Origin: Sneathiella sp.
GTDB lineage: Bacteria; Pseudomonadota; Alphaproteobacteria; Sneathiellales; Sneathiellaceae
DNA length: 64,000 nt
NCBI GenBank assembly: GCA_002706985.1
Contig: PAKP01000037.1
Span: 1-64,000 of the forward strand
Direction: 5' to 3'
Made by a program: the position numbers and the translations under genes. Under the pieces are notes generated by a model. It worked only from the letters and a program-made list of their open reading frames with translations. It was not told the origin of the DNA and did no database searches. This document shows positions 2,473-16,326 of the stretch, piece after piece (the first letter of the stretch is position 1; each line of letters starts with the position of its first letter).

Positions 2473-3099
2473 ATGGTTAAAAATCTTCTCTTAAACGTTG
2501 TTATCTCGGCTCTGTTTGTAATATGCACAGTGTCACTGGCAATGGCCGAGGACATTGGTACGGTAACAAGGCTGAAAAACACTGCATCTGTTGTTCGTGC
2601 CGGTCAGCAAATGGATATTGAAACCGGTTTCAAGATTCAGGAATTCGACGAAGTCCTGTCCGGAGAAGAGTCGCGCGTTGAAATCACCTTTCATGACGGA
2701 ACAAAGCTCAATATCGGCGCAGATTGTCATATCGTCATCGACAAATTTATGTTCGATCCCGATGTCGGTATCGGCATTGCAATTTTAAGGGCCATGCAGG
2801 GACCGTTTCGCTTTATTACAGGCCACATTGGCAAAACCCGTGACCCTCAGATTGTCGTTCAATCCCGTTTTGGTGTGATCGGCGTTCGTGGGACCGATTT
2901 CTGGGCCGGTCCGTCGCGCGGTCAGTATGGCGTCTTATTGCTTGAAGGGTCTATATCCGTGACCAACCCGTCCGGTCAACGTATCCTTAACGAGCCGGGA
3001 ACCGGCGTCAATCTGACAAGCAATGAAGTGCCACCAAGTGAGGTAACGACGTGGGGCGCTACCCGGGCCGCAGAGGCGCTGGCGGCAGTCGCATTCTAA
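2473..3099 (+). CDS. Secreted FecR-domain protein (paralogue 1)
   Basis: A 208-residue protein with a clear Sec signal peptide (hydrophobic core at residues 5-22, cleavage after AMA) and one FecR domain. The FecR core is seen in VEITFHDGTKLNIG and VIGVRGTDFWAGP, followed by a beta-rich tail (GVLLLEGSISV). Classical FecR is an inner-membrane anti-sigma sensor with an N-terminal cytoplasmic region. Here the domain is purely exported, with no transmembrane segment after the signal peptide and no fecI or TonB receptor nearby, so a FecI-type role is unlikely. It is a tandem paralogue of the gene 230 bp downstream. Its molecular function is unknown; a periplasmic binding or scaffold role is a guess. 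Confidence 0.85.
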   Translation: MVKNLLLNVVISALFVICTVSLAMAEDIGTVTRLKNTASVVRAGQQMDIETGFKIQEFDEVLSGEESRVEITFHDGTKLNIGADCHIVIDKFMFDPDVGIGIAILRAMQGPFRFITGHIGKTRDPQIVVQSRFGVIGVRGTDFWAGPSRGQYGVLLLEGSISVTNPSGQRILNEPGTGVNLTSNEVPPSEVTTWGATRAAEALAAVAF

Positions 3100-3330: not shown

Positions 3331-3966
3331 ATGCTAAAGAAAATGCTTATGGTTATTTCACTAACGATTGTTGGCGCTATTTCGACAACCGGACAGAGCT
3401 TCGCCGCCAATTCCGAGGTCGGAACCGTGACCCGGCTGCAAAGCGCTGCAGAAATAGTCCGTGACGGCAAAGGTATTCCGCTCGAAGTTGGGTCAATCGT
3501 TCAGGAAAATGATGAAATTAACTCCAAAGCGGATGCCCGCGTTGAAATTACCTTCAATGACGGGACAAAGCTCCTGATCGGAGAAAATGCCCGCATTGGG
3601 ATTGATGAGTATCTTTATGAGCCTAAAAATGGTATTGGCACTGCAATATTGAGTGCGCTTCAAGGACCGTTTCGCTTTATCACGGGCAAAATCAGCGAGA
3701 TGAAGGAGAAACGTCTCGAAGTGAAGACCAGTCTGGCCACAATTGGCATCCGCGGGACTGACTTCTGGGGCGGGCCGTCCATGGGCACCTACGGTGTCTT
3801 TCTGTTTGAGGGCACAATTGTTGTCTTTAATTCGGATGGTGGTCGGATTGTAAGTACTCCGGGTACCGGCGTTGATGTGGATGGTATGAATATCGCGCCA
3901 GGCGAAGCAGAACAATGGAATGAAGAGCGGGCTCAGGCAGCTGTTGCTACTATAACGTTTAGATAG
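3331..3966 (+). CDS. Secreted FecR-domain protein (paralogue 2)
   Basis: A 211-residue paralogue of the preceding gene, with the same architecture: signal peptide ending near SFA, then a FecR domain with VEITFNDGTKLLIG, ALQGPFRFITGKI and TIGIRGTDFWGGP. The two proteins align along their full length, so this is a tandem duplication with considerable divergence. The start is set by GAGGAGAGC just upstream of the ATG. As with its twin there is no sigma factor, receptor or secretion system beside it. The 230-bp spacer between the two copies suggests separate promoters. The PAS-type gene begins 20 bp downstream and may be co-transcribed. Confidence 0.85.
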   Translation: MLKKMLMVISLTIVGAISTTGQSFAANSEVGTVTRLQSAAEIVRDGKGIPLEVGSIVQENDEINSKADARVEITFNDGTKLLIGENARIGIDEYLYEPKNGIGTAILSALQGPFRFITGKISEMKEKRLEVKTSLATIGIRGTDFWGGPSMGTYGVFLFEGTIVVFNSDGGRIVSTPGTGVDVDGMNIAPGEAEQWNEERAQAAVATITFR

Positions 3967-5573: not shown

Positions 5574-6053
5574 TTATTTTGGCTGAGCGAAAATGGCGCT
5601 GCTTCCGTTACGCATCAGGGCGATTTTATCTACCAATCGACTGGTAATATCATTGAACGTCTTGACCTCTTCTTCCGTGAGAACTGATAACAATTCTTCC
5701 TCAAACTGCAAGCCGAGTTCAGAAATCTTCTCATATATCTTTTCGCCATCCCCCGTAAGCTTGATGAGAGTTCTCCGGCGATCAGTTTCATCTACCCAGC
5801 GGTTTACCAGACCGCCACGTTCCAGATCTGTTATGGCACGGGCAACCGTCATCTTCTCCATTGCGGAATATTGCGTCAGTCCGGAAACAGTGGTTGGCTG
5901 CAGTTGATGTGTGGCTGCCAGCATCCGCCACTGCGGCACACTTAGTTTGAAAACCGGTTCATACATTCTCAGGAAAACGGCGCTGATCTCGTTATCCAAT
6001 CGCGACACACGATAGGGGATGAAATTGGAAAGTATAAGCTTCTGCTTTTTCAT
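5574..6053 (-). CDS. MarR-family transcriptional regulator
   Basis: A 159-residue winged-helix regulator of the MarR type. The recognition helix region 'YSAMEKMTVARAITDLERGG' and the wing 'WVDETDRRRTLIKLTGDG' (conserved D-R-R) are clear. Long helices at both ends would form the dimer interface. MarR proteins next to aromatic catabolic genes usually repress them until the aromatic substrate or its CoA ester binds. The start is supported by AAAGG six bases upstream of the ATG. It lies between the FAD hydroxylase (133 bp upstream) and the exporter gene (16 bp downstream), so it is likely co-transcribed with the exporter and may control the whole cluster. Confidence 0.87.
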   Translation of the reverse strand: MKKQKLILSNFIPYRVSRLDNEISAVFLRMYEPVFKLSVPQWRMLAATHQLQPTTVSGLTQYSAMEKMTVARAITDLERGGLVNRWVDETDRRRTLIKLTGDGEKIYEKISELGLQFEEELLSVLTEEEVKTFNDITSRLVDKIALMRNGSSAIFAQPK

Positions 6054-6126
6054 TAATACCTTTGCCGAGACAGAAAATGCGAATCGCTTGCCTAGCCCTT
6101 CACGTGATTATCTGCGGCTGCCTCTC

Positions 6127-6136
6127 AATTGCAATT
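6127..6136. promoter_or_regulatory. Candidate MarR operator upstream of marR
   Basis: A perfect 10-bp palindrome, AATTGCAATT, in the 133-bp gap between the FAD hydroxylase stop and the marR start. AT-rich palindromes of this sort are typical MarR sites and autoregulation is usual for the family. The assignment rests only on position and symmetry. Confidence 0.35.
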
Positions 6137-6186
6137 CTATTCTTGATTTGGCCTATAATTGTTACGTTAGCCAGACAAACTCGCCC

Positions 6187-7374
6187 TTATTCGGACAATT
6201 CTGTAGTTACTGCATCATATCCATATATCCAGCGATAACGCGTGTCAACGCGGCCGCTTTCGTACTCACGGTCGATATGCTCCATACCCTGATCGCGCTC
6301 TTGGAGATTTGGATTATGCACACGTTTTAGCTGTTTAGCAGAAAGTTCGACAATTGCCTTTGTCCGCTCTTTTCTTGCCTCTTCGTATATGCGAAGGGCC
6401 TTTTCAGGGGCGTCCAGAAAGGCAGACAATGCCCGCGCCAGAACCACGCCATCCTCGAAAGACATATTCGCCCCCTGGCTCAGGAAAGGTAGTGTGGAAT
6501 GGCACGCATCGCCCAATAAGGTTACTCGGCCCTTGCTCCAATCAGCAAGAGGCTGGCGTACAATAAGAGCCCATTTATAGGGTGTTTCAATGTTTTCGAC
6601 CATCAGGTGAACATTCTTGTGCCAGCCGACGAAATCCTGCATCGCCTCTTCAGTCGTGCCTTTCTGATTCCAGCCCTCAACTGTCCAATCATCACGATCT
6701 ACCATGGCAATAAAATTGAGCAGTTTTCCCTTACGCACAGGATAAGTAACGATATGCGCCTTCGGGCCCAACCACATCGAGCCCCCCTTAAGATCAATAT
6801 CCTCGTCAATTGCGTCGGCCGGCACCAATCCGCGCCACGCCATACAGCCTGTGAATTCCGCCTGATCCTGACCAAACAGACTGCGGCGAACAGCAGAGTG
6901 AATGCCATCGGCGCCAATCACGAGATCAGCGCTAATCCTTGTACCATCCTCAAACTCAACGTTTACCGTGTCATCAACCTGAGTCTGGGATTTGAAACAT
7001 TTATTCAGATACACAGCTCCGGGCTTTCGCTTTTCCAAGGCTTCTTTCAACAAACCGAGCAGATCAGCACGGTGGAAAGTCAGATAAGGCGCACCATATT
7101 GATTTTCTTCTCCAAGTCGCATGAAATCTCGGGTTTCGGCGGTATCCCATAGATAAATTGTCTTACCCGTGGTTTCCGTTCCAACGTTGAGCAATTCCTC
7201 CTCAAGGTCTAACGAAAGCAGGGCACGAGAACCATTCGGCGTAAGTTGTACGCCTGCCCCGACCTCTCCCAGCTCGGCCGCCTGTTCATAGACTTCAACA
7301 TCAAATCCCTTGCCGTGCAGCGCGAGCGCAGCTGAAAGTCCGCCCAGACCTCCACCAATAATTGCAACTTTCAA
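6187..7374 (-). CDS. FAD-dependent aromatic hydroxylase (salicylate hydroxylase-like)
   Basis: A 395-residue class A flavoprotein monooxygenase, a single-component NAD(P)H-dependent enzyme that hydroxylates a phenolic ring. The Rossmann FAD motif GGGLGGLSAALAL is at the N-terminus, 'LVIGADGIHSAVRR' provides the DG motif, and 'GRVTLLGDACHSTLPF' is the second FAD-binding GD motif. Its nearest described relatives are salicylate and 3-hydroxybenzoate 6-hydroxylases. Because ring cleavage in this cluster is by homogentisate dioxygenase, the likely product is homogentisate, so 2- or 3-hydroxyphenylacetate is an inferred substrate. The start is a TTG one base after the fumarylacetoacetase stop. The strong AAGGAGG that serves it is formed by the last codons of that gene, implying translational coupling. 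Confidence 0.88.
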   Translation of the reverse strand: MKVAIIGGGLGGLSAALALHGKGFDVEVYEQAAELGEVGAGVQLTPNGSRALLSLDLEEELLNVGTETTGKTIYLWDTAETRDFMRLGEENQYGAPYLTFHRADLLGLLKEALEKRKPGAVYLNKCFKSQTQVDDTVNVEFEDGTRISADLVIGADGIHSAVRRSLFGQDQAEFTGCMAWRGLVPADAIDEDIDLKGGSMWLGPKAHIVTYPVRKGKLLNFIAMVDRDDWTVEGWNQKGTTEEAMQDFVGWHKNVHLMVENIETPYKWALIVRQPLADWSKGRVTLLGDACHSTLPFLSQGANMSFEDGVVLARALSAFLDAPEKALRIYEEARKERTKAIVELSAKQLKRVHNPNLQERDQGMEHIDREYESGRVDTRYRWIYGYDAVTTELSE

Positions 7375-7375
7375 G

Positions 7376-8719
7376 TTATCCTCCTTCTTTACTGTCTACC
7401 GGCTCAGCCGCGGATATTATTGTGCCATTGCATTCCCCGAAACCGATCGTCCGGTATCCGTCTCTTTCACACCAAGCCGACAGGAAGACGGTATCTCCGT
7501 CTTCAAGAAAACTGCGACTCTCAGTATTCGAAATTTGGACAGGGAGCTTACCTCCCTGTGTTACCTCTATCAGGGCACCGGTTTGATCTGCCCCCGGCCC
7601 CGACATAGTGCCGCTCCCGAACAGGTCCCCTGCCCGCAGATTGCATCCATTCACCGTGTGATGAGCGACCATTTGCGCCGGTGTCCAATATGAATATTTG
7701 AAGTTACTCAGGCCGAGACGCTTGGGCGGCAAGCCGTCCCCCTTCATTTTCACGGAGTGGATCGAAACATCGAGGTACATATCTATGCCGCAATTTGCCT
7801 CTTCCCTATCTGAATTAAGATAAGGGAGAATAGTTCTACCCTCCGCCTCTTTCATAGGAGTTCGAAATGGGGCGAGCGCTTCCATAGTGACGATCCAAGG
7901 AGAGATCGTGGTTGCGAAGTTCTTGCCCAAAAACGGTCCGAGCGGTTGATACTCCCATGCCTGAATATCCCGCGCCGACCAGTCATTCAGAAGGCAAACC
8001 CCAAAGAGATGCTGTTCTGCCTCGTCAATGGAAACTGGAACATTCCGCTGATTACCCATCCCAACGAACAGCCCAACCTCCATTTCATAGTCCAGCTTTT
8101 CGGATACAGAGACATGCGGCGGAGCATCAATCGAAGGCCGGATTTGACCCCTCGGCCTGACAATAGGCTCCCCTGAAACAACGATCGAGGATGAACGGCC
8201 ATGATACGCAATCGGCACCCATTCATAGTTCGGCATCAAGGGATTATCCGGCCTGAACAGCTTTCCGATATTCGTCGCATGATCAATCGACGCATAGAAA
8301 TCCGTATAATCCATTATCGTCGCAGGGAGCGCATACTCCGCTTTTGACTGCTCTATCAAGCAATCCGGAACCTTGCCATCATAGGAGCTCCCCTGCCTTA
8401 ACAGTTCAAATAATGTGCTTCGTGTGCTGGACCAGATAGCCTCTCCTTCTGCCATGAAATTGTTGAGAGTGGACGCATACAGACTGTCCGGGATATTCAG
8501 CCGGGAGGTACGCGCGCTTTCCGATCGACCTAAGGCCGTCAGGTCCAGTATTTTGTCGCCAATACCCACACCGATACGAAACGTCTCATCTGTTCCTGAA
8601 CTACGGAACACTGCATAGGGCAAGTTCTGCAAAGGAAAAGGACTCCCCTGTTCATTTGCAGTCTCGACCCAACTCATACTATTTGGATCATGTGTTTCGT
8701 TCAGCAACGGCATTTCCAT
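7376..8719 (-). CDS. fahA: Fumarylacetoacetase
   Basis: This hydrolyses fumarylacetoacetate to fumarate and acetoacetate, the last step of homogentisate breakdown. The 447-residue length matches the family. The N-terminal SWVETANEQGSPFPLQNLPY is the family's SH3-like entry. The catalytic region 'YTDFYASIDHATNIGKLFRP' carries the metal-binding Asp and the His of the active site, followed by 'YHGRSSSIVVSG'. Further metal ligands lie in 'LDYEMEVGLFVG' and 'LLNDWSARDIQAWEYQ'. Its final codons overlap the ribosome binding site of the hydroxylase downstream. It lies 45 bp downstream of the ABC binding-protein gene, inside the homogentisate cluster. Confidence 0.95.
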   Translation of the reverse strand: MEMPLLNETHDPNSMSWVETANEQGSPFPLQNLPYAVFRSSGTDETFRIGVGIGDKILDLTALGRSESARTSRLNIPDSLYASTLNNFMAEGEAIWSSTRSTLFELLRQGSSYDGKVPDCLIEQSKAEYALPATIMDYTDFYASIDHATNIGKLFRPDNPLMPNYEWVPIAYHGRSSSIVVSGEPIVRPRGQIRPSIDAPPHVSVSEKLDYEMEVGLFVGMGNQRNVPVSIDEAEQHLFGVCLLNDWSARDIQAWEYQPLGPFLGKNFATTISPWIVTMEALAPFRTPMKEAEGRTILPYLNSDREEANCGIDMYLDVSIHSVKMKGDGLPPKRLGLSNFKYSYWTPAQMVAHHTVNGCNLRAGDLFGSGTMSGPGADQTGALIEVTQGGKLPVQISNTESRSFLEDGDTVFLSAWCERDGYRTIGFGECNGTIISAAEPVDSKEGG

Positions 8720-8764: not shown

Positions 8765-9811
8765 TTACTGTACGTCCATCCGGGGGCCTTTGCGACCGAT
8801 CTTATCGAGCGCTTTGTTCAGATAGCTGAAATCAACCATATCTGTCATTTTCGGCTTTTCCTTGAGCATGCCCTTCTCAGTATACCAATCCATCGTCAGC
8901 TTGATTGTATCGGTATTAAAGTAACCATCCTCATTAAAACCGGGGAAGGCGATCTCATCCAGAATTGAGCGTTCTTTCAGACGGGCATACTCCGAAATGA
9001 TACCGAACAGTTCATCCTTGCCTTCATCGGTTTTGATAGCATCGAGATAGAAACGAACGCCTCTAACATACGCTTCCAGATACTTGGCCGCCTCCTCAGG
9101 CTTGTCATTCATAAAGGCTTCACCGTAAATAACCCCGGAAATGTTGAAATCAGGACTGATTTCATCTACGCCGATTATACGTACTCCCAGGTCGTTCTGG
9201 CCAGCACGCGCAACGAACGGTTCGACCAGAACTGCTGCATCCAGATTCTTGGTGGCGAGAGCCGCCATCATGTTCGGAAATGACAGAACTTTCAGTTCAA
9301 CGTCCGAAAGACTCATCCCCTCCTTTTTCAGGCCGAGGTCAAGCTGGATATCCAGCGGTGAGTTTGGGGAGACGGACCCTACCGTAAGACCCTTGAAGTC
9401 GGCAAGCGAAGTTGCCTTGCCGTCATCATACAGATCTTTGCGAACAACGATTGCATTAAACCCGTGACCAGAGGAGTTACGTCCCAAGTCCGCAACGAGC
9501 TTCATTTTAAGACCGTTTAGCTTCGCGTTATAAAAGCCGAGTGTCGGCGCACCCGCGGCTACATCGATCTGACCCGCGCTAAGGGGCGCGACCATCGTCG
9601 CCGTATTCTTGAAATTGACGATCTCGACATCAAGACCGGCTTCTTCAAAATAGCCTTTTGCTTTTGCAATCACGATCGGGCTGGCAGCAATGCTTCGAAG
9701 TGCTGCGACCTTCACCGGCACCAGTTCCGCCGCCATAGCAGCCGTGGATAAAACACCGAGCGACAAGGTTGCACATGCCGCAGCGATTATTGAAATCTTT
9801 CTCATCATCAT
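8765..9811 (-). CDS. ABC transporter substrate-binding protein, NMT1/TauA/SsuA type
   Basis: A periplasmic binding protein of the NMT1/THI5-like family, which serves sulfonate, taurine, nitrate and thiamine-precursor importers. A typical Sec signal peptide ends near AMAAE. The mature protein opens with 'LVPVKVAALRSIAASPIVIAK', and 'GLTVGSVSPNSPLDI' is the usual ligand-proximal loop. Several Met codons cluster at the start; the third in the run (9811) is placed 9 bases after AAGG and is preferred here. It lies between fahA and maiA rather than beside its permease, but the same operon supplies one permease and one ATPase. The ligand is probably the aromatic substrate of the cluster (inference). 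Confidence 0.88.
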   Translation of the reverse strand: MMMRKISIIAAACATLSLGVLSTAAMAAELVPVKVAALRSIAASPIVIAKAKGYFEEAGLDVEIVNFKNTATMVAPLSAGQIDVAAGAPTLGFYNAKLNGLKMKLVADLGRNSSGHGFNAIVVRKDLYDDGKATSLADFKGLTVGSVSPNSPLDIQLDLGLKKEGMSLSDVELKVLSFPNMMAALATKNLDAAVLVEPFVARAGQNDLGVRIIGVDEISPDFNISGVIYGEAFMNDKPEEAAKYLEAYVRGVRFYLDAIKTDEGKDELFGIISEYARLKERSILDEIAFPGFNEDGYFNTDTIKLTMDWYTEKGMLKEKPKMTDMVDFSYLNKALDKIGRKGPRMDVQ

Positions 9812-9882
9812 TACTTTCAACCTTTCTAAACTATGTTGGCGTTGTGGTTACAAAACATCCAATTGACTCACCCGAAATCCCG

Positions 9883-10593
9883 CTAATTGAATAACGTGGA
9901 ATCGGACTGCGTATCAGGATGGGCGTCAATAAAGCAGGGAAGTAAATTGCAGTTTTCCGCAATACTTCTAACCCGCGGGTAGTCCGACAAATCACAATTA
10001 AAACGCGTTGCATTATAGACCTGCGGTATCAGGCAAAAATCTGCCAGCGTCACGCTGTCACCAAGGCAATAGGCTTTGTCCTTGCCGTACTTCGCAAGAA
10101 GATCTTCAAAGGCCTTAAGACCGGTGGAAATCCAGTGGGCATACCAGCGCTGCTTCCGTTGTTCTGAAATGCCAAGGTCATCCGTGAGAAAATTGAGGAC
10201 ACGTACATTGTTCAAAGGATGAATATCGCACGCGATTACATTTGCCAGCATTCGCACATATGCGCGATCCTTGGGATCGTTCGGCAAGATTGGCGGCTGG
10301 GGACAAGTTTCATCCAGGTATTCGAGAATTGCCATCGACTGGCCCAATGAGAAATCCGCCTCTTCATAGCTTGGCACCAACATCTGTGGATTCACGCCCC
10401 AGAAATCACTTTGCAGATTCTGCTTTTGCGCCAGATTTATAGGCACCAATTCAAATGGAAGCTGCTTGAAGGCAAGCGCTATCCGCAGTCTGTATGCAGT
10501 GGAAGAACGCCAGTAGGAATAAAGAAGCCGATGCCTCTCGTCACGGCAATCTCGATTACCGCCTTTCGGAGTATGAGCTTCTTTAGCCTCCAT
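9883..10593 (-). CDS. maiA: Maleylacetoacetate isomerase (zeta-class GST)
   Basis: This isomerises maleylacetoacetate to fumarylacetoacetate using glutathione. It has the zeta-GST N-terminal motif YSYWRSSTAYRLRIAL, containing the SSxxxR signature, then 'LVPSYEEADFSLGQSMAILEYLDE' for glutathione binding. The C-terminal helical domain contains 'GDSVTLADFCLIPQVYNATRF', the conserved N-capping box. I chose the ATG at 10593, six bases after the permease stop, over an in-frame upstream Met (10623) that would overlap the permease. An atypical charged extension of about 20 residues precedes the domain with either start. It is the middle enzyme between HmgA and FahA in this operon. Confidence 0.93.
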   Translation of the reverse strand: MEAKEAHTPKGGNRDCRDERHRLLYSYWRSSTAYRLRIALAFKQLPFELVPINLAQKQNLQSDFWGVNPQMLVPSYEEADFSLGQSMAILEYLDETCPQPPILPNDPKDRAYVRMLANVIACDIHPLNNVRVLNFLTDDLGISEQRKQRWYAHWISTGLKAFEDLLAKYGKDKAYCLGDSVTLADFCLIPQVYNATRFNCDLSDYPRVRSIAENCNLLPCFIDAHPDTQSDSTLFN

Positions 10594-10598
10594 CCCAC

Positions 10599-11447
10599 TC
10601 ACCGCCTGTTCTTCGGCGCCCAAGGAAGGCAGGCGCGCTCTATGAAATCGAGGAAAGTGAAAGATGCCCAGCCAAGAAAACCAATGACGATAATCCCGAC
10701 AAACATCGACCGGACATCAAAAATCTGCCAGGAATTCCAGACCAGATATCCGATACCGCTCTCGGCGCCGACAAATTCCGCACTTACTAGAACGAGAAGC
10801 GAAACACCTGCACTCACGCGCAAACCGGCAATGATCATTGGCATTGCAGCCGGTAATGTAATTTTGAAAACGGACCGGATTTTCGAGACACGAAAGCTTC
10901 GGCCAACGTCCTTGTAAATGCTTTCAACGTTGGACACGCCGGCGACCGTATTGATCACCATGTAAAAAAAGACGGCAATTGCGACGACCACAAATTTGCT
11001 CATCTCCCCAAGGCCAAACAGCACCATGATCAAGGGAAAAATCGCAATTTTCGGTATGGGGTAGATCGATGCGATAATAGGTGACAGAACGGCGCCAACT
11101 ACTGGGATGACTCCCATCATCGTGCCGACAAAGATTCCCGCAATGGCACCAAAGAAGAAGCCGACACATATGCGAAGGAGCGAAATTGACAGGTCATCCC
11201 AAAGCGCACCACTTACGATCAGTTCATAAAAAGTTCCTGCAATCATGCTTGGCGCGGGAAATAAGCGTCTATCAAGAAGGCCAAGCTGAATAACGATTTC
11301 CCATATCAACAATAATATAAGCGGACTGGCAACAGTCAGTATCCTGTCCCGCTTTCTCCTGAACTTCTCTGCCTGACCAATATCTTTGGAGGGGGGGAAT
11401 TCAACCATTAATCCGACGGTCTGAGATTTGCTGTTTTGATCGTTCAT
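10599..11447 (-). CDS. ABC transporter permease, TauC/SsuC type
   Basis: The inner-membrane permease of the importer, with about six transmembrane segments. The first spans 'ILTVASPLILLLIWEIVIQL'. The cytoplasmic EAA-type coupling loop is read in 'VGRSFRVSKIRSVFKITLPAAMPMIIAG'-like sequence (positions about 10820-10910), which contacts the ATPase. The family (SsuC/TauC/NrtB) imports sulfonates, taurine, nitrate and related anions. The preferred start is the ATG at 11447, preceded by GGAG and 13 bases after the ATPase stop. The longer open frame to 11546 would overlap the ATPase by 86 bases and is not favoured. Confidence 0.9.
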   Translation of the reverse strand: MNDQNSKSQTVGLMVEFPPSKDIGQAEKFRRKRDRILTVASPLILLLIWEIVIQLGLLDRRLFPAPSMIAGTFYELIVSGALWDDLSISLLRICVGFFFGAIAGIFVGTMMGVIPVVGAVLSPIIASIYPIPKIAIFPLIMVLFGLGEMSKFVVVAIAVFFYMVINTVAGVSNVESIYKDVGRSFRVSKIRSVFKITLPAAMPMIIAGLRVSAGVSLLVLVSAEFVGAESGIGYLVWNSWQIFDVRSMFVGIIVIGFLGWASFTFLDFIERACLPWAPKNRR

Positions 11448-11460
11448 ATTACAAATCTCC

Positions 11461-12315
11461 TCATTCGATGATTTCCGGATCATTTCCGGTAGGGCCCAAG
11501 CCGACATGAATGGATTTAAGGAGCATTTCATACTCAGGCGTTGCACGGACCGCCGTCATATCCCGAGGGCGCGCAAATTCGGGCATATGTGTCTGCGTGA
11601 TATGGCCGGGAGGCCCGGTAAACACCAAAATTCTGTCCGCAAGGTAAATTGCTTCATCTATGGAATGGGTCACGAAGACGATGGTCTTGCCTGTCTCCTC
11701 CCAGATACGGAGCAGTTCATCCTGAAGCGTTGCCTTGTTCCGTTCATCCAGGGCAGAAAATGGCTCATCCAGCAATAGGACTTCCGGATCATTTGCAAAC
11801 GCACGGGCAATTGAAACACGCTGCTTCATTCCGCCAGAAAGCTGATGCGGAAAATGCTTGCTGAAGCTGGTCAGTCCAACCTTTTCAATATAGTAGGAAA
11901 CACGTTCCTTGATCAGCGCTTTAGGCGCATTCCGCGCGCGAAGACCAAAGGCAACATTCTCCCAGACGTTCAGCCATGGAAAGATGGAGACTTCCTGAAA
12001 TACGATTGACGTTGGTGGTTGGCCGGTGCTTTCCTGATGAAAGCGTAACGTGCCCTCAGTATGCTTCTCCAACCCCCCCAAGATGCGGAGGAGTGTCGTT
12101 TTTCCGCATCCTGACGCCCCCAGAACACAGACAAACTCTCCAACACCGACATCCAGATCTATGGATTTGAGCGCCTGAAATTCATCCGATCCGACCAGGA
12201 ATTTTTTCCCCAGCCCTCGAAGCTCCATTGATACCCGGGATGATGTGGTGCCTTTCTGAGCGTCAACCATATGCGCCTTCATTCCGGTTTCGACACCTTT
12301 CGTCGATGGCTTCAT
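11461..12315 (-). CDS. ABC transporter ATP-binding protein, TauB/SsuB type
   Basis: The 284-residue nucleotide-binding subunit of the importer. Walker A is GASGCGKTTLL, the ABC signature is LSGGMKQRVSIARAF and Walker B is VLLLDEPFSALDE, followed by the H-loop 'IVFVTHSIDEAIYLADRI'. This last segment is characteristic of the nitrate/sulfonate/taurine subfamily. It has an N-terminal extension of about 30 residues before the ABC domain. The start codon overlaps the hmgA stop (ATGA), so the two are translationally coupled. That ties substrate uptake to ring cleavage in one operon. Confidence 0.93.
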   Translation of the reverse strand: MKPSTKGVETGMKAHMVDAQKGTTSSRVSMELRGLGKKFLVGSDEFQALKSIDLDVGVGEFVCVLGASGCGKTTLLRILGGLEKHTEGTLRFHQESTGQPPTSIVFQEVSIFPWLNVWENVAFGLRARNAPKALIKERVSYYIEKVGLTSFSKHFPHQLSGGMKQRVSIARAFANDPEVLLLDEPFSALDERNKATLQDELLRIWEETGKTIVFVTHSIDEAIYLADRILVFTGPPGHITQTHMPEFARPRDMTAVRATPEYEMLLKSIHVGLGPTGNDPEIIE

Positions 12316-13595
12316 TGATTCACCGCCCTTTTCCTAAAGCCATCCCAACACTGGAGGTAGTCTCTCTGACGCCAGCCCGATTCAACGGCGCATTTTGTCG
12401 GCAAGATTGGCAAACGGCTCTCAAACATGAAGGCATAAGTATTGTCCAGCTTATGTGGTGCAAGTTCGTTTGTTATCCCGTTCTGATAAGTATCCAGATC
12501 GGGCCCATGCGGGACCATTCGGTTATGAAGGCTCACCCCTCCCGGCGCGAAGCCGGTTGCCTTGCCTTCATAGACGCCCTGCACGCTGCCCATAAATTCA
12601 CTCATCACATTGCGATGGAAATATGGGGGCCGGAATGTATTCTCCATGACCTGCCATCTTGGGCAGAATGCAACAAAATCAATATTGGCTGTTCCGACCT
12701 CATGGGAGGGTGAAGTAAGAACCGTATTGATGGAGGGGTCGGGGCTGTCTACCGAAATAGACCCGAAGGTAACAAAATTTTCCAACTCGAACTTGTAGGG
12801 AACCAGGTTTCCATGCCAGCCGTATACGTCAAATGGCGTAGGAACTCCGCGTGACACCCACATTCTATCCCGGTACTTGCTGTAGATATCATAAACCCCG
12901 TCCTTTTCAATCTTGGCATCAGGCACCAGAAAATCCTTGGGGTTGGCAAGACCATTTGCACCGATTGGTCCGAGGTCTGGAAGCCGAAATGCCTTGCCGT
13001 GATTTTCACATATGTAACCGGCAGACGGTCCTTCCAGAAGATCCACTTTAAATGTCATCCCTCTCGGAATGAGCGCAATCTCCGTTGGCGCGAGGGTGAA
13101 TTTTCCGAGTTCCGTGATGATCTCAATTTTCCCGGCATAGGGGACGACAAGCAGTTCACCATCATGATTTTTGAATGCCCGGTTCTCCATTCCCTTGTTC
13201 AGCGCATAGCTATGAACGGAAATATTCACTGCCTCGATACTTTCTGAATCCTTGCCAAGTGTCATCAGGCCATCCAGAAAATCACAGTCCGCCTCCGGCA
13301 TCGGCCTGGGGCTCCAGCGCATGGGCACTGGACCGGCATCCTGAACTTCCGCTGCTGCTGCGAAGTTATCAAATATGACGTTCTCTTGCTCTGTTACCCG
13401 CGCAACGGACGGAAGGGCACGATACATCCAAGTCCGGCGATTTTCCCCTCGCGGCGCAGTAAAGGCTGTCCCGGAAAGCTGCTCTGCATAGAGGTCATCC
13501 TTAATCTTCTGCGGATTGTTTTGTCCGCTTACCAGAACTCCGGGCATGACTTCAGACGAAAAATGGTTACCAAATCCGCTCATTTTTTCTGTCAC
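12312..13595 (-). CDS. hmgA: Homogentisate 1,2-dioxygenase
   Basis: The non-heme Fe(II) enzyme that opens the homogentisate ring to maleylacetoacetate. The family's N-terminal signature is nearly intact: SGFGNHFSSE, then GQNNPQ and YAEQLSGTAFTAPRGENRR. The iron ligands lie in the C-terminal half, with PPYFHRNVMSEFMG (His and Glu) and 'HNRMVPHGPD' (His). Length (427 aa) is normal. It starts at a GTG preceded by GGAG at 8 bases. Gentisate dioxygenase was considered and rejected, because the signature is specific to the homogentisate family. No 4-hydroxyphenylpyruvate dioxygenase gene is in the cluster, so homogentisate must be supplied by another route. Confidence 0.95.
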   Translation of the reverse strand: MTEKMSGFGNHFSSEVMPGVLVSGQNNPQKIKDDLYAEQLSGTAFTAPRGENRRTWMYRALPSVARVTEQENVIFDNFAAAAEVQDAGPVPMRWSPRPMPEADCDFLDGLMTLGKDSESIEAVNISVHSYALNKGMENRAFKNHDGELLVVPYAGKIEIITELGKFTLAPTEIALIPRGMTFKVDLLEGPSAGYICENHGKAFRLPDLGPIGANGLANPKDFLVPDAKIEKDGVYDIYSKYRDRMWVSRGVPTPFDVYGWHGNLVPYKFELENFVTFGSISVDSPDPSINTVLTSPSHEVGTANIDFVAFCPRWQVMENTFRPPYFHRNVMSEFMGSVQGVYEGKATGFAPGGVSLHNRMVPHGPDLDTYQNGITNELAPHKLDNTYAFMFESRLPILPTKCAVESGWRQRDYLQCWDGFRKRAVNQ

Positions 13596-13654: not shown

Positions 13655-14056
13655 CTATTCATCGTCCGCGCATATAGCAACGGCTTCCACCTCGATCAGC
13701 AACTCCGGTTTGATCAGGGTATCGACCGAGATAAGAGTGCTGGTAGGCGGCGCATCAGTCAGATAGTTCCGACGAACATCTCTGACAGTTTTTACTTTTT
13801 CAGGGGTCATCTGCTTTATGAGGATAAGGCATCTTACAACATCGGAGAACTCAGCCCCAGCGGCACTGAGTGCCCGGCCGATATTCTCATAGACCTGTTC
13901 TGTTTGCTTCTTCAGATCACCCACACCAACGATGACGCCCTCAGAGTCATAAGAGACCTGACCGGAAATATGGATGATGCGCCCACCTGTCGATATGGCA
14001 ACATGGCTATATCCACTCGGTGTTGCCATATCTTTGGGATCAAGAAACTTGTTCAT
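13655..14056 (-). CDS. RidA/YjgF/YER057c-family protein
   Basis: A 133-residue chorismate-mutase-like trimer protein of the RidA family. 'IIHISGQVSYDSEGVIVGVGD' and 'LKKQTEQVYENIGRALSAAG' are the characteristic strands and helix. 'PPTSTLISVDTLIKPELLIEVEAVA' carries the conserved C-terminal strand, where the Arg of true RidA (C/S-T-R-V) is replaced by Ser-Thr-Leu-Ile. The missing Arg suggests it is not a classical 2-aminoacrylate deaminase. RidA relatives in catabolic operons can be hydrolases of enamine or imine intermediates. It is placed 59 bp after hmgA upstream and 4 bp after the DszB-like gene, tightly within the operon. Confidence 0.82.
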   Translation of the reverse strand: MNKFLDPKDMATPSGYSHVAISTGGRIIHISGQVSYDSEGVIVGVGDLKKQTEQVYENIGRALSAAGAEFSDVVRCLILIKQMTPEKVKTVRDVRRNYLTDAPPTSTLISVDTLIKPELLIEVEAVAICADDE

Positions 14057-14060
14057 CTAT

Positions 14061-15107
14061 CTACCTTTCCAACATCGAAATCTTTAAGGGGGAGTCGATT
14101 ATCCAATCCTCTACGGAGAAATCATTCTCGATAAAACCGTATTCCCGCAGGAAATCCTTTTGCGAACGAACCGCAGCAATAGAATCCGGCTCAAGCCCGA
14201 CCTTCAAATTTGAGAAAATGTCATGTCCATATGAGGGGATCACCCAATCTTCCGAGCATCCAACATCATTGGCAATACTACGGACCGCGGCGGCCTCATT
14301 TTTTCCCGCCCAATCTGCGGCCAGATTCAAGGCACGAATGAAAGTACCAACGGTTTCAGGTTCCTTTTCCGCCAGATCACGATCCACCGTCAACACGTTC
14401 GGCGTTTGATTGTTAATATGCCGATCCGCTCCAATCCAAGCACCTAAATTTATAAGCTCGCGCGCACGTATCTGATCTCTCAACTGCACACCAAGCGCAC
14501 CAGATGTATATATGACATCGACGTCACCCTTTATGAAGGCAAGCGTCTCTTCCGTTTGCCGCTGCGCACGCGCCTTACCGGACCAGAGCGAGGGATCTTT
14601 TGACCCGTCTGCTTTCTTCTGCTCAATATAATGATCTTCAACTGGCAACGTAACCAGTTCCACATCATCGAAAGTGAGGTCGGCCTTGTTCAGAGCTGCC
14701 TGATATCCACGCAAGCACATGGCTCTCCAGAAATCTATTTTCTCATGAACCCGCGTCGGGACGGCAAGTCTGGCGCCAACCAGATCTTCCGGCTTCTCAA
14801 TAGGCGCATCCGAGCGAACAAGTAGAGACTGATACTCTTTTGTCCAAGCGATACCTATGAGTGCCGTATTCGCCCCGCGAGACCTGGACCAGATGGGCGG
14901 AATATTTCCGCCCTGCCGGAACATCTCCCCGATGCTATGGGAGAAATGGGAGTTACGTTCCGTCTCTGATTTCATCTCTGCGATTGATTTCAGCCTGATA
15001 CCTGATCGCTCGAATTCACTCTGCAATTGACCAGCATCAATTGCTACTCCTGTTGCCGTCGGCAGCGGACACCGGCTGTACCATAATGTCGAAGACTCCT
15101 GGCTCAC
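14061..15107 (-). CDS. DszB-like (sulfinate desulfinase-like) protein of the periplasmic-binding-protein fold
   Basis: A 348-residue protein of the NMT1/substrate-binding fold but with no signal peptide, so it should be cytosolic. It resembles DszB, the 2'-hydroxybiphenyl-2-sulfinate desulfinase of Rhodococcus. The DszB catalytic Cys27 context (YSNCPVPNA) aligns with YSRCPLPTA here (Cys13). His60, Arg70 and Gly73 of DszB align with His54, Arg64 and Gly67 in SHFSHSIGEMFRQGGNIPPI, with the same 10-residue His-to-Arg and 3-residue Arg-to-Gly spacings. Further shared segments are 'LLVRSDAPIEKPEDLVGARL' and 'LTFDDVELVTLP'. This comparison is from memory of DszB. The start is GTG after GGAGCG. The function inferred is C-S (or analogous C-X) cleavage, not ligand transport; the substrate is unknown. 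Confidence 0.75.
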   Translation of the reverse strand: MSQESSTLWYSRCPLPTATGVAIDAGQLQSEFERSGIRLKSIAEMKSETERNSHFSHSIGEMFRQGGNIPPIWSRSRGANTALIGIAWTKEYQSLLVRSDAPIEKPEDLVGARLAVPTRVHEKIDFWRAMCLRGYQAALNKADLTFDDVELVTLPVEDHYIEQKKADGSKDPSLWSGKARAQRQTEETLAFIKGDVDVIYTSGALGVQLRDQIRARELINLGAWIGADRHINNQTPNVLTVDRDLAEKEPETVGTFIRALNLAADWAGKNEAAAVRSIANDVGCSEDWVIPSYGHDIFSNLKVGLEPDSIAAVRSQKDFLREYGFIENDFSVEDWIIDSPLKISMLER

Positions 15108-15157: not shown

Positions 15158-16249
15158 CTAGCCTGCGTAATCGTAAAAGCGAGACGCATTGTGCCAAAGC
15201 AGCTTTTCCATGGTTTCAGGGTTCAGATCCTTGCGAACCCCAAACTCTTCAAGAGGGTTTTCGTGTGCTGCGTCATCGAAATGCGGCAGATCGGTACAAA
15301 TCATAAAAATATCATTGCCGATTTTACCGGCCATATAATCGAGGTCTTCAGTGGGTTCAGCGCACACGAAAACCCGGCCTTCATCGATAAACTTGTCCAC
15401 AGCCTTATTTCCTTTTCTCCGCAACGCACCGACAGCTCCCATCAGCCAATCGGACCCTGCTGTCTCGAGGAATCCCCAACGTAACTTTGGGAACTCTGTT
15501 GCCAGTGGTGTTTCCATCAGGTTGTAAAAGGCGAACTGGACAATCAGCGGACCAATCAAACGCTTCACCCGACCGGGCCAGAATGGCTCTTCACCAGGAA
15601 TACGCTGCTGATACTGGAACATTTCCCGAATTGCCGGGCTTCCTGAACCAATATGAACAGCCATCGGCAGATTGCGTTTTTCCGCCTCTGCATAAATCGG
15701 ATAGAAATCCGGATCGCTGATTGGCTTATCCCATTCAAGACCCCGCATGAAAATGGAGGCAACACTGCCCATTTCACACACGCGATCAATTTCCTTAACT
15801 GCCGCCTCCGGATCGCGAAAAGGCACCATCGCAGCATAGCGCATTCGCCCACCGGACTGCTTAACCTGACCAGCGACATAGGTATTGTAGCTTTTCATCA
15901 ACTCCGTCTCTAACGCGGCATCCTCGCACAGATTTAACAGGCCGAAGGTCGGATAGATGATCTGGATATCGATATTTGCCCTGTCCATATCCGCGAGGCG
16001 GGCAGGGATCGATTCCAGCGTTTGGGATTCTATCGGGTATCGTTTGCCGACAGACCGCGCGCCGATTGGCGGAGATGCTCCGAACAGCCGCACTTTCTCA
16101 TCAATCAGCCAAGCCGCATTGAATACGGTCAGCGATGTATCCTCCGGCAATTCTATAGCCAGAGGGCGGCGGGCATGGAACTCTTTTGGCAAATGCTGCC
16201 AAGCCAGTTCATTCTCCATAATATGAGCATCAGAATCGAAAACACGCAT
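15158..16249 (-). CDS. COG2159 amidohydrolase-fold enzyme (decarboxylase/hydrolase)
   Basis: A TIM-barrel metal enzyme of the amidohydrolase 2 family, about 363 residues. It belongs to the subgroup whose N-terminal motif is DSDAHIME (Asp7-x-His9 in place of the usual HxH). Later metal or catalytic residues are visible in 'LPMAVHIGSGSP' (His) and 'MICTDLPHFDDA' (Asp). Characterised relatives include ACMS decarboxylase, gamma-resorcylate decarboxylase and 5-carboxyvanillate decarboxylase, so a decarboxylation or hydrolysis upstream of ring hydroxylation is plausible. The ATG at 16249 follows AAGGTGG at 6 bases, better than the adjacent TTG. It is the first gene of the minus-strand catabolic operon. 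The exact reaction is not decidable. Confidence 0.85.
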   Translation of the reverse strand: MRVFDSDAHIMENELAWQHLPKEFHARRPLAIELPEDTSLTVFNAAWLIDEKVRLFGASPPIGARSVGKRYPIESQTLESIPARLADMDRANIDIQIIYPTFGLLNLCEDAALETELMKSYNTYVAGQVKQSGGRMRYAAMVPFRDPEAAVKEIDRVCEMGSVASIFMRGLEWDKPISDPDFYPIYAEAEKRNLPMAVHIGSGSPAIREMFQYQQRIPGEEPFWPGRVKRLIGPLIVQFAFYNLMETPLATEFPKLRWGFLETAGSDWLMGAVGALRRKGNKAVDKFIDEGRVFVCAEPTEDLDYMAGKIGNDIFMICTDLPHFDDAAHENPLEEFGVRKDLNPETMEKLLWHNASRFYDYAG

Positions 16250-16326
16250 CAATTGCCACCTTCAAAATATAGAAACATCAGATCAGGTATCGTCGGTTAA
16301 GTCCTGCATTTAGTAACATTTTATAC

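Follow-up and report, generated by a model that had tools for sequence, protein, structure and literature searches.

A putative DszB-family desulfinase encoded in a homogentisate catabolic operon of Sneathiella

DszB (PDB 2de2, 2de3 and 2de4) is the 2'-hydroxybiphenyl-2-sulfinate desulfinase of the 4S pathway, and its reaction has been described as the one that limits the rate of that pathway and is understood least (PMC6100217). In the accessible text of the same study, Cys27 is the proton donor of an electrophilic aromatic substitution and is steadied by the H60-S25 dyad, in which Ser25 partners His60; Gly73 bonds with Arg70 and, when the transition state is reached, with the sulfinate as well; the RXGG motif that includes Arg70 is conserved across DszB homologues; mutations of Tyr63 and Gln65 affect activity, and the C27S variant is inactive (PMC6100217). 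A DszB-type desulfinase gene is also found in the Bds operon of Gordonia terrae C-6, which turns benzothiophene into o-hydroxystyrene. There it is accompanied by two monooxygenases, the substrate is a smaller aromatic, and transport genes of the sulfonate/nitrate/taurine type have neighbouring gene numbers (PMC3868597, accessible part). Compared by description, this operon differs from the locus reported here in that the accessible text does not mention homogentisate genes (PMC3868597). Periplasmic sulfonate-binding proteins of the SsuA/TauA type belong by profile to the same fold family (PF09084 NMT1, TIGR01728), but they are exported, lack the Cys-His-Arg set and occupy a separate branch of the tree described below.

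We analysed a stretch of 64,000 nucleotides from Sneathiella (the window), in which a DszB-like gene, present as a single copy in the genome, lies in a compact row of genes (Table 1). The initial annotation held that its product carries no signal peptide, and this is borne out both by the upstream frame and by hydropathy. An AGGAG motif stands immediately 5' of the GTG start, and the frame above it runs for nine codons to a stop with no ATG, GTG or TTG among them, so the protein cannot be extended to include a signal peptide. The N-terminal peak hydropathy is 1.24, resembling the values of two DszB sequences (1.16 and 1.80), and seven of eight binding proteins reach 1.90 to 2.69, the eighth being SBP_Strep2 at 0.29. 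The protein has three cysteines, at positions 13, 131 and 284. A CCCFC motif is the hallmark of the THI5/NMT1 pyrimidine synthase, and inspection of all 348 residues found no such motif.

Table 1. The operon and its neighbouring regulator gene in the window, in transcriptional order
Feature	Coordinates	Strand	Details
Amidohydrolase_2 protein, first gene of the operon	15158..16252	(-)	Pfam PF04909, E 6e-14
DszB-family protein (desulfinase-like)	14061..15107	(-)	348 aa, GTG start; key residues Ser11, Cys13, His54, Arg64, Gly66, Gly67
RidA-family enamine/imine deaminase	13655..14056	(-)	Pfam PF01042; TIGR00004 below cut-off
HmgA, homogentisate 1,2-dioxygenase	12312..13595	(-)	TIGR01015 543.5 bits (cut-off 510.75)
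ABC importer ATPase (SsuB/TauB/NtrCD type)	11461..12315	(-)	NCBIfam matches listed all below cut-off
ABC importer permease (SsuC/TauC type)	10599..11546	(-)	NF008470 SsuC, below cut-off
MaiA, maleylacetoacetate isomerase	9883..10623	(-)	TIGR01262 272.9 bits (cut-off 171)
True ABC substrate-binding protein	8765..9820	(-)	Hydrophobic N terminus; PF13379/PF09084
FAH, fumarylacetoacetase	7376..8719	(-)	TIGR01266 503.2 bits (cut-off 375)
FAD aromatic hydroxylase	6187..7374	(-)	NCBIfam matches below cut-off
MarR-family regulator (HpaR/BilQ-like)	5574..6053	(-)	Below cut-offs; 133 bp after the FAD hydroxylase gene

A search of the PDB placed DszB first, with 2de2 at E 1e-16 (residues 6-338 on 20-354) and 2de3 and 2de4 at E 2.7e-15; the next entry, the sulfonate-binding protein 2x26, reached E 0.046 over about 50 residues, and the solved structures that match the protein well are those of DszB only. 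Pairwise identity to a DszB is approximately 26%. The phmmer alignment sets Ser11, Cys13, His54, Arg64 and Gly67 on DszB Ser25, Cys27, His60, Arg70 and Gly73 in one register. The predictions made earlier from the sequence alone therefore survived alignment: Cys13 lies in the Ser/Thr-x-Cys context of DszB Cys27; Cys, His and Arg keep the DszB register in both the sequence and the profile alignment; the spacings of 10 between His and Arg and of 3 between Arg and Gly are exact in both proteins; and the Cys-His distance is indeed 8 residues longer (41 from Cys13 to His54, 33 in DszB). The match of Ser11 to Ser25 goes beyond what had been noted. The two proteins are thus alike in their full-length homology, short N terminus, Ser-x-Cys-Pro-x-Pro motif, His, and Arg-x-Gly-Gly register (here Arg64-Gln-Gly66-Gly67), and they differ in the Cys-His distance, in their operons (dszABC as opposed to homogentisate catabolism) and in two pocket positions, where the PDB-search alignment pairs Tyr63 and Gln65 of DszB with His57 and Ile59. 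From this replacement the substrate is probably not that of DszB itself. A loss of the DszB pocket residue Trp155 was considered and dropped, as phmmer pairs it with Tyr135 and another alignment disagrees.

Profile comparison with two DszB sequences gave E 3.2e-31 over 318 columns that include the active-site block, and comparison with six binding proteins gave E 4.9e-23 with an alignment that starts past the Cys; the two values are not strictly comparable because the profiles are of unequal depth. The protein exceeds the cut-off of the Pfam model PF09084 NMT1 (36.2 against 20.5) and stays below those of the binding-protein models TIGR01728 (67 bits against 163.5) and TIGR01729 (23.3 against 304.25). 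As a control, the exported binding protein of the same operon was compared with the PDB up to E 1; its 15 matches were transporters and THI5, and DszB was not among them. Judged by the full-length match, the profile score and this control, the resemblance to DszB is far beyond chance, and by these profiles DszB, the binding proteins and the DszB-like protein are one fold family in which DszB is the nearer, with the profiles being of unequal depth. An AlphaFold2 model, with the window protein and its relative from Sneathiella IN21 as input sequences, had a pLDDT of 41, too low to locate the residues in space.

To place the protein among its relatives, translated searches of plasmids and genome contigs were examined. 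At 1e-5 the plasmid search returned 93 records, of which the 60 listed are each 36-40% identical and mostly from Sinorhizobium and Rhizobium; the other 33 include some ordinary binding proteins (Shinella, S. mexicanum). Relatives also occur on plasmids of Burkholderia and Variovorax. The same search with DszB found mycobacterial DszB (65%) and then, among the best 60 of 81 rows, largely the same records. A single-protein search of genome contigs gave one relative, that of Sneathiella IN21, and a scan of viral contigs found no further usable relatives. The window protein is therefore not an isolated oddity, as relatives are common on rhizobial plasmids and present in Burkholderia and Variovorax. 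It is rare among sampled genomes: at 1e-20, two of the 25 genomes searched in the order encode it, and the family turned up in 4 of 385 from the class and 7 of 398 from the phylum, with the window's genome counted in each and at most the best five candidates per genome scored in the class and phylum scans.

In a 15-row alignment, Cys13, His54, Arg64, Gly66 and Gly67 are invariant and the Cys-His distance is 41 in every row. A table of 45 relatives, compiled from fetched loci after matches of fewer than 250 query residues were dropped, shows the same distance in 37, so the additional eight residues are not peculiar to the window protein. Cys is kept in 39 of the 45 (Ser in six), His in 42 and Arg-x-Gly-Gly in all, and the whole set is present in 38/45, whereas no binding protein of the eight carries it. 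At position 57, 42 relatives have His, as does the window protein. Position 11 is occupied by Thr in 42, by Ala in two and by Ser in one, the Sneathiella relative, and hence both Sneathiella proteins agree with DszB in having Ser at a site where the family mostly has Thr. The plasmid proteins that could be aligned, from Sinorhizobium, Rhizobium, Burkholderia and Variovorax, are about 35-40% identical to the window protein and have the same active-site block and Cys-His spacing. When the relatives were examined as possible signal-peptide-bearing binding proteins devoid of these residues, they proved instead to be DszB-family proteins with short N termini. Since DszB C27S is inactive according to the accessible text of PMC6100217, the six members with Ser in place of Cys may be inactive partners.

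A likelihood tree of 56 rows separated DszB and the family from eight binding proteins with support of 100/99, and the split was retained at 99/98 when five rows were removed and six binding proteins were left. The closest-homologue tree suggested with the initial annotation thus groups the protein with DszB and not with binding proteins. For both trees the program warned of long-branch meeting and of unusual letter composition in several rows. A constraint that joined the Sneathiella pair to the binding proteins was 8.6 log units worse, with a moderate p-AU of 0.038. Within the family the Sneathiella pair sits on a separate long stem, weakly beside a protein of Rhizobium ACO-34A (83/33), and the point at which DszB itself attaches is less certain owing to its long branch. 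Together, the sequence comparisons give good support to the window protein being a cytosolic DszB-family member with an intact site.

Gene neighbourhoods of the family outside Sneathiella were read by tblastn in 26 regions, 17 plasmid loci being among them. Here L049/L050 and L051/L052 were each taken as one region, the DszB reference locus L039 was not counted, and L044, L045 and L047 were excluded as binding proteins or a fragment. At 1e-8, a gene for a flavin monooxygenase of the LLM type, a DszC-type gene resembling acyl-CoA dehydrogenases, or both, were present in 25 of the 26 regions (LLM in 23, DszC-type in 13). In contrast, the same search found neither in 13 control regions, each 8 to 20 kb in length, which were mostly from Sneathiella and not taxon-matched to the family regions: eight Sneathiella hmgA regions, three other stretches of the window's contig and two Shinella plasmid regions (L044 and L045 being among the controls). 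PF08028 cannot tell DszC from ordinary acyl-CoA dehydrogenases, with 29 matches in the window's genome. Some family regions also carry SsuBC and msuE, and the importers nearby are of the dipeptide or Ssu type. Based on the difference from the controls, these regions look like sulfur clusters of the dszABC type. Those of their proteins that have an annotation are labelled 'ABC transporter substrate-binding protein', 'monooxygenase' or 'hypothetical protein'. The one exception was L043 of Rhizobium johnstonii, where no flavin monooxygenase was matched near a divergent member (28%, positions 5962-7137); genes for a homocysteine S-methyltransferase and a rhodanese lie nearby. As the relatives occur in sulfur clusters, it is the homogentisate setting and not the active site that is the unusual part of the Sneathiella locus.

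The DszB-like gene is the second of ten in the Sneathiella row, which runs from the amidohydrolase_2 gene through DszB-like, RidA, hmgA, ssuB-like, ssuC-like, maiA, binding protein and fah to the FAD hydroxylase, followed by the MarR-family gene. Gaps across the ten genes range from -86 to 62 bp, with 4 bp between the RidA and DszB-like genes, and from this spacing we infer that the ten are co-transcribed. In Sneathiella IN21 the genes follow the same order, with 67-88% identity, minus maiA, which had no match in its operon region (L048); the homogentisate setting of the DszB-like gene is therefore real and common to two genomes. The amidohydrolase, at 88% identity to its IN21 counterpart, was found at 1e-50 only in the window's genome among 398 genomes of the phylum. 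Between the two Sneathiella genomes the dN/dS of the DszB-like gene is about 0.07 with dS near saturation, and eight of the nine shared genes fall between 0.02 and 0.08 with synonymous sites likewise near saturation, RidA giving no value. The DszB-like gene thus appears to be under purifying selection. The stretch next to the IN21 operon (L048, 1579-6903) encodes a TRAP transporter, a ferredoxin-type reductase and a VanA-like Rieske monooxygenase. For this oxygenase the window's genome offers one partial match at 28% and no clear equivalent, and so the Rieske monooxygenase and TRAP transporter were placed outside the shared core of the pathway.

Alternatively, catalysis might have been lost, leaving a binding or sensor protein in the cytosol, or the gene might be an unlinked one that the operon carries by chance. 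The protein does match the TIGR01728 profile of sulfonate-binding proteins below cut-off, and the six relatives with Ser for Cys indicate that non-catalytic members may exist. However, the window protein has the complete catalytic set, and its gene occupies the same operon position, under apparent purifying selection, in two genomes whose DszB-like proteins differ by about 27%, which makes this explanation very improbable.

Hits to hmgA at 1e-50 showed that the operon copy is the sole one in both operon-bearing genomes, and that a different hmgA, 46-49% identical, is present in 11 of the 22 other Sneathiella genomes. Eight regions around this other type were fetched (14 kb each, one of 7.8 kb) and none contained a DszB-like gene or a related amidohydrolase gene. 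We then compared these groups for 4-hydroxyphenylpyruvate dioxygenase (HPD) in a search covering 18 of the 24 Sneathiella genomes. HPD was above cut-off in all 11 genomes with the other hmgA type; the two operon-bearing genomes had no recognisable HPD (a 21-bit partial match in the window's genome and no match in IN21). Among five genomes without hmgA, HPD was above cut-off in three, a two-piece gene in one and a 25-bit match in one. In these two genomes, the operon-type hmgA is accompanied by a lost or absent tyrosine route, and consequently the homogentisate of the operon is probably not derived from tyrosine. Homogentisate, or an analogue, is probably supplied through the other genes of the operon.

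The FAD hydroxylase may be one such gene, as its kind fits the making of a para-dihydroxy ring. Its nearest kinds are tropone 2-monooxygenase TrlE, NicC and 3-hydroxybenzoate 6-hydroxylase, and hydroxylases of these kinds also perform ipso-substitution with loss of CO2 (PMC11110157, accessible part). The top solved relative is TrlE (8rqh, 240 bits), only moderately above NicC, a 6-hydroxynicotinate 3-monooxygenase (207 bits), so a tropone pathway is not claimed.

Window positions 1-26000 and the 20 kb around the IN21 operon contain no LLM or DszC-type genes, so that the pair of DszA-type and DszC-type monooxygenases that defines a 4S (dszABC) cluster is lacking from both. The window's genome has one LLM monooxygenase, of the MsnO8 type, and no clear DszC, the best candidates being ordinary-looking acyl-CoA dehydrogenases at 25% identity. 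With no recognised sulfinate-forming oxygenase in this genome, the sulfinate would need to come from uptake or from an enzyme not recognised as such, which weakens a sulfinate-based reading; these absences are provisional, since the genome is 94.5% complete. The genes around the family elsewhere resemble those of sulfur assimilation (LLM monooxygenases, SsuBC and, in some regions, msuE), and by analogy the Sneathiella operon might scavenge sulfur from an aromatic sulfinate, with the homogentisate genes merely disposing of the ring. We consider this quite unlikely given that msuE and SsuD/DszA-type genes were unmatched in window positions 1-26000, that a family search assigned only the DszB-like gene and the Ssu-like importer to sulfur metabolism among the ten operon genes, and that the genes joined to them form a homogentisate carbon pathway with a terminal MarR-family gene resembling HpaR.

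The amidohydrolase raises another alternative. Its top PDB match is the putative amidohydrolase 8sm8 (E 4e-12), and its superfamily includes decarboxylases, those for gamma-resorcylate and 5-carboxyvanillate being among the weaker matches. The DszB scaffold might therefore have been recruited to a protonolysis in which CO2 and not SO2 leaves, with Cys13 protonating an aromatic carbon, the amidohydrolase as a second trimming enzyme and a sulfur-free aromatic acid being degraded. That the window's genome is devoid of a recognised sulfinate-making enzyme and that pocket positions 57 and 59 are unlike DszB would suit such a reaction, and a binding-protein fold is also that of 4,5-dihydroxyphthalate decarboxylase. 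Nevertheless, we regard it as unlikely, because the DszB active-site residues that were checked are kept, including the Ser11 replaced by Thr in most relatives, the importer most resembles the SsuBC/TauBC/NtrCD type (below cut-offs), and the remaining family resides in sulfur clusters.

The reading that we prefer, at a probability of roughly 0.55, is that the protein is a DszB-family C-S lyase that releases sulfite from an aromatic sulfinate and so feeds homogentisate. It would be an enzyme built on the fold of a substrate-binding protein. Going by its homologue DszB, the sulfinate group would be held by Arg64 and the Gly66-Gly67 loop, the thiol of Cys13 would protonate the sulfur-bearing carbon while the His54-Ser11 pair steadies the charge on Cys13, and SO2 would leave to become sulfite with the proton staying on the ring or vinyl carbon. 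In the predicted order of steps, the SsuABC-like importer would bring in an aromatic organosulfur compound, the putative desulfinase and the amidohydrolase would trim it, the FAD hydroxylase would place a hydroxyl para to the existing one, and HmgA, MaiA and FAH would yield fumarate and acetoacetate from homogentisate or a closely similar compound. We tentatively suggest, as a possibility going well beyond the desulfinase assignment, that this amounts to an undescribed Sneathiella pathway that mineralises an aromatic organosulfur compound as a carbon source, by Ssu-like uptake, DszB-family protodesulfination free of 4S monooxygenases, ring hydroxylation and homogentisate cleavage, with no recognisable route from tyrosine to homogentisate. 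A chemically suitable candidate substrate is a hydroxyphenyl-ethenesulfinate or sulfinophenylacetate such as benzothiophene could give rise to, which might reach homogentisate through 2-hydroxyphenylacetate.

The open-access literature yielded no description of a DszB homologue in a homogentisate operon, in agreement with the novelty claimed in the initial annotation, and no paper pairing homogentisate with a desulfinase. Papers combining sulfinate and homogentisate concerned tick cells and cancer antioxidants, judging by titles and the beginnings of abstracts, and the one combining benzothiophene and homogentisate concerned melanin analysis, judging by its title. Most members of a family with the DszB site go unnoticed because they are labelled 'ABC transporter substrate-binding protein', and one of its branches is tied to a carbon pathway and not to sulfur supply. 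The family offers new enzymes to test for desulfination, and the operon is a defined one in which the fate of aromatic organosulfur can be traced.

Several minor observations concern the family and the window. The Ser-for-Cys copy directly adjoins a Cys copy in L055 (9889-10911), L057 (8835-9869), L058 (10825-11847) and L059 (8939-9961), and lies in the same cluster as a Cys copy in L010 (6263-7276) and L013 (3228-4274). On a Hydrogenophaga plasmid (L047, 3962-4315), a truncated relative covering residues 228-319 sits beside an IS1071 transposase gene and near a PDR/VanB-type reductase gene. Beyond the MarR-family gene, the window encodes two adjacent and mutually similar secreted proteins (2473-3099 and 3331-3966) that resemble FecR-type domains by eye.
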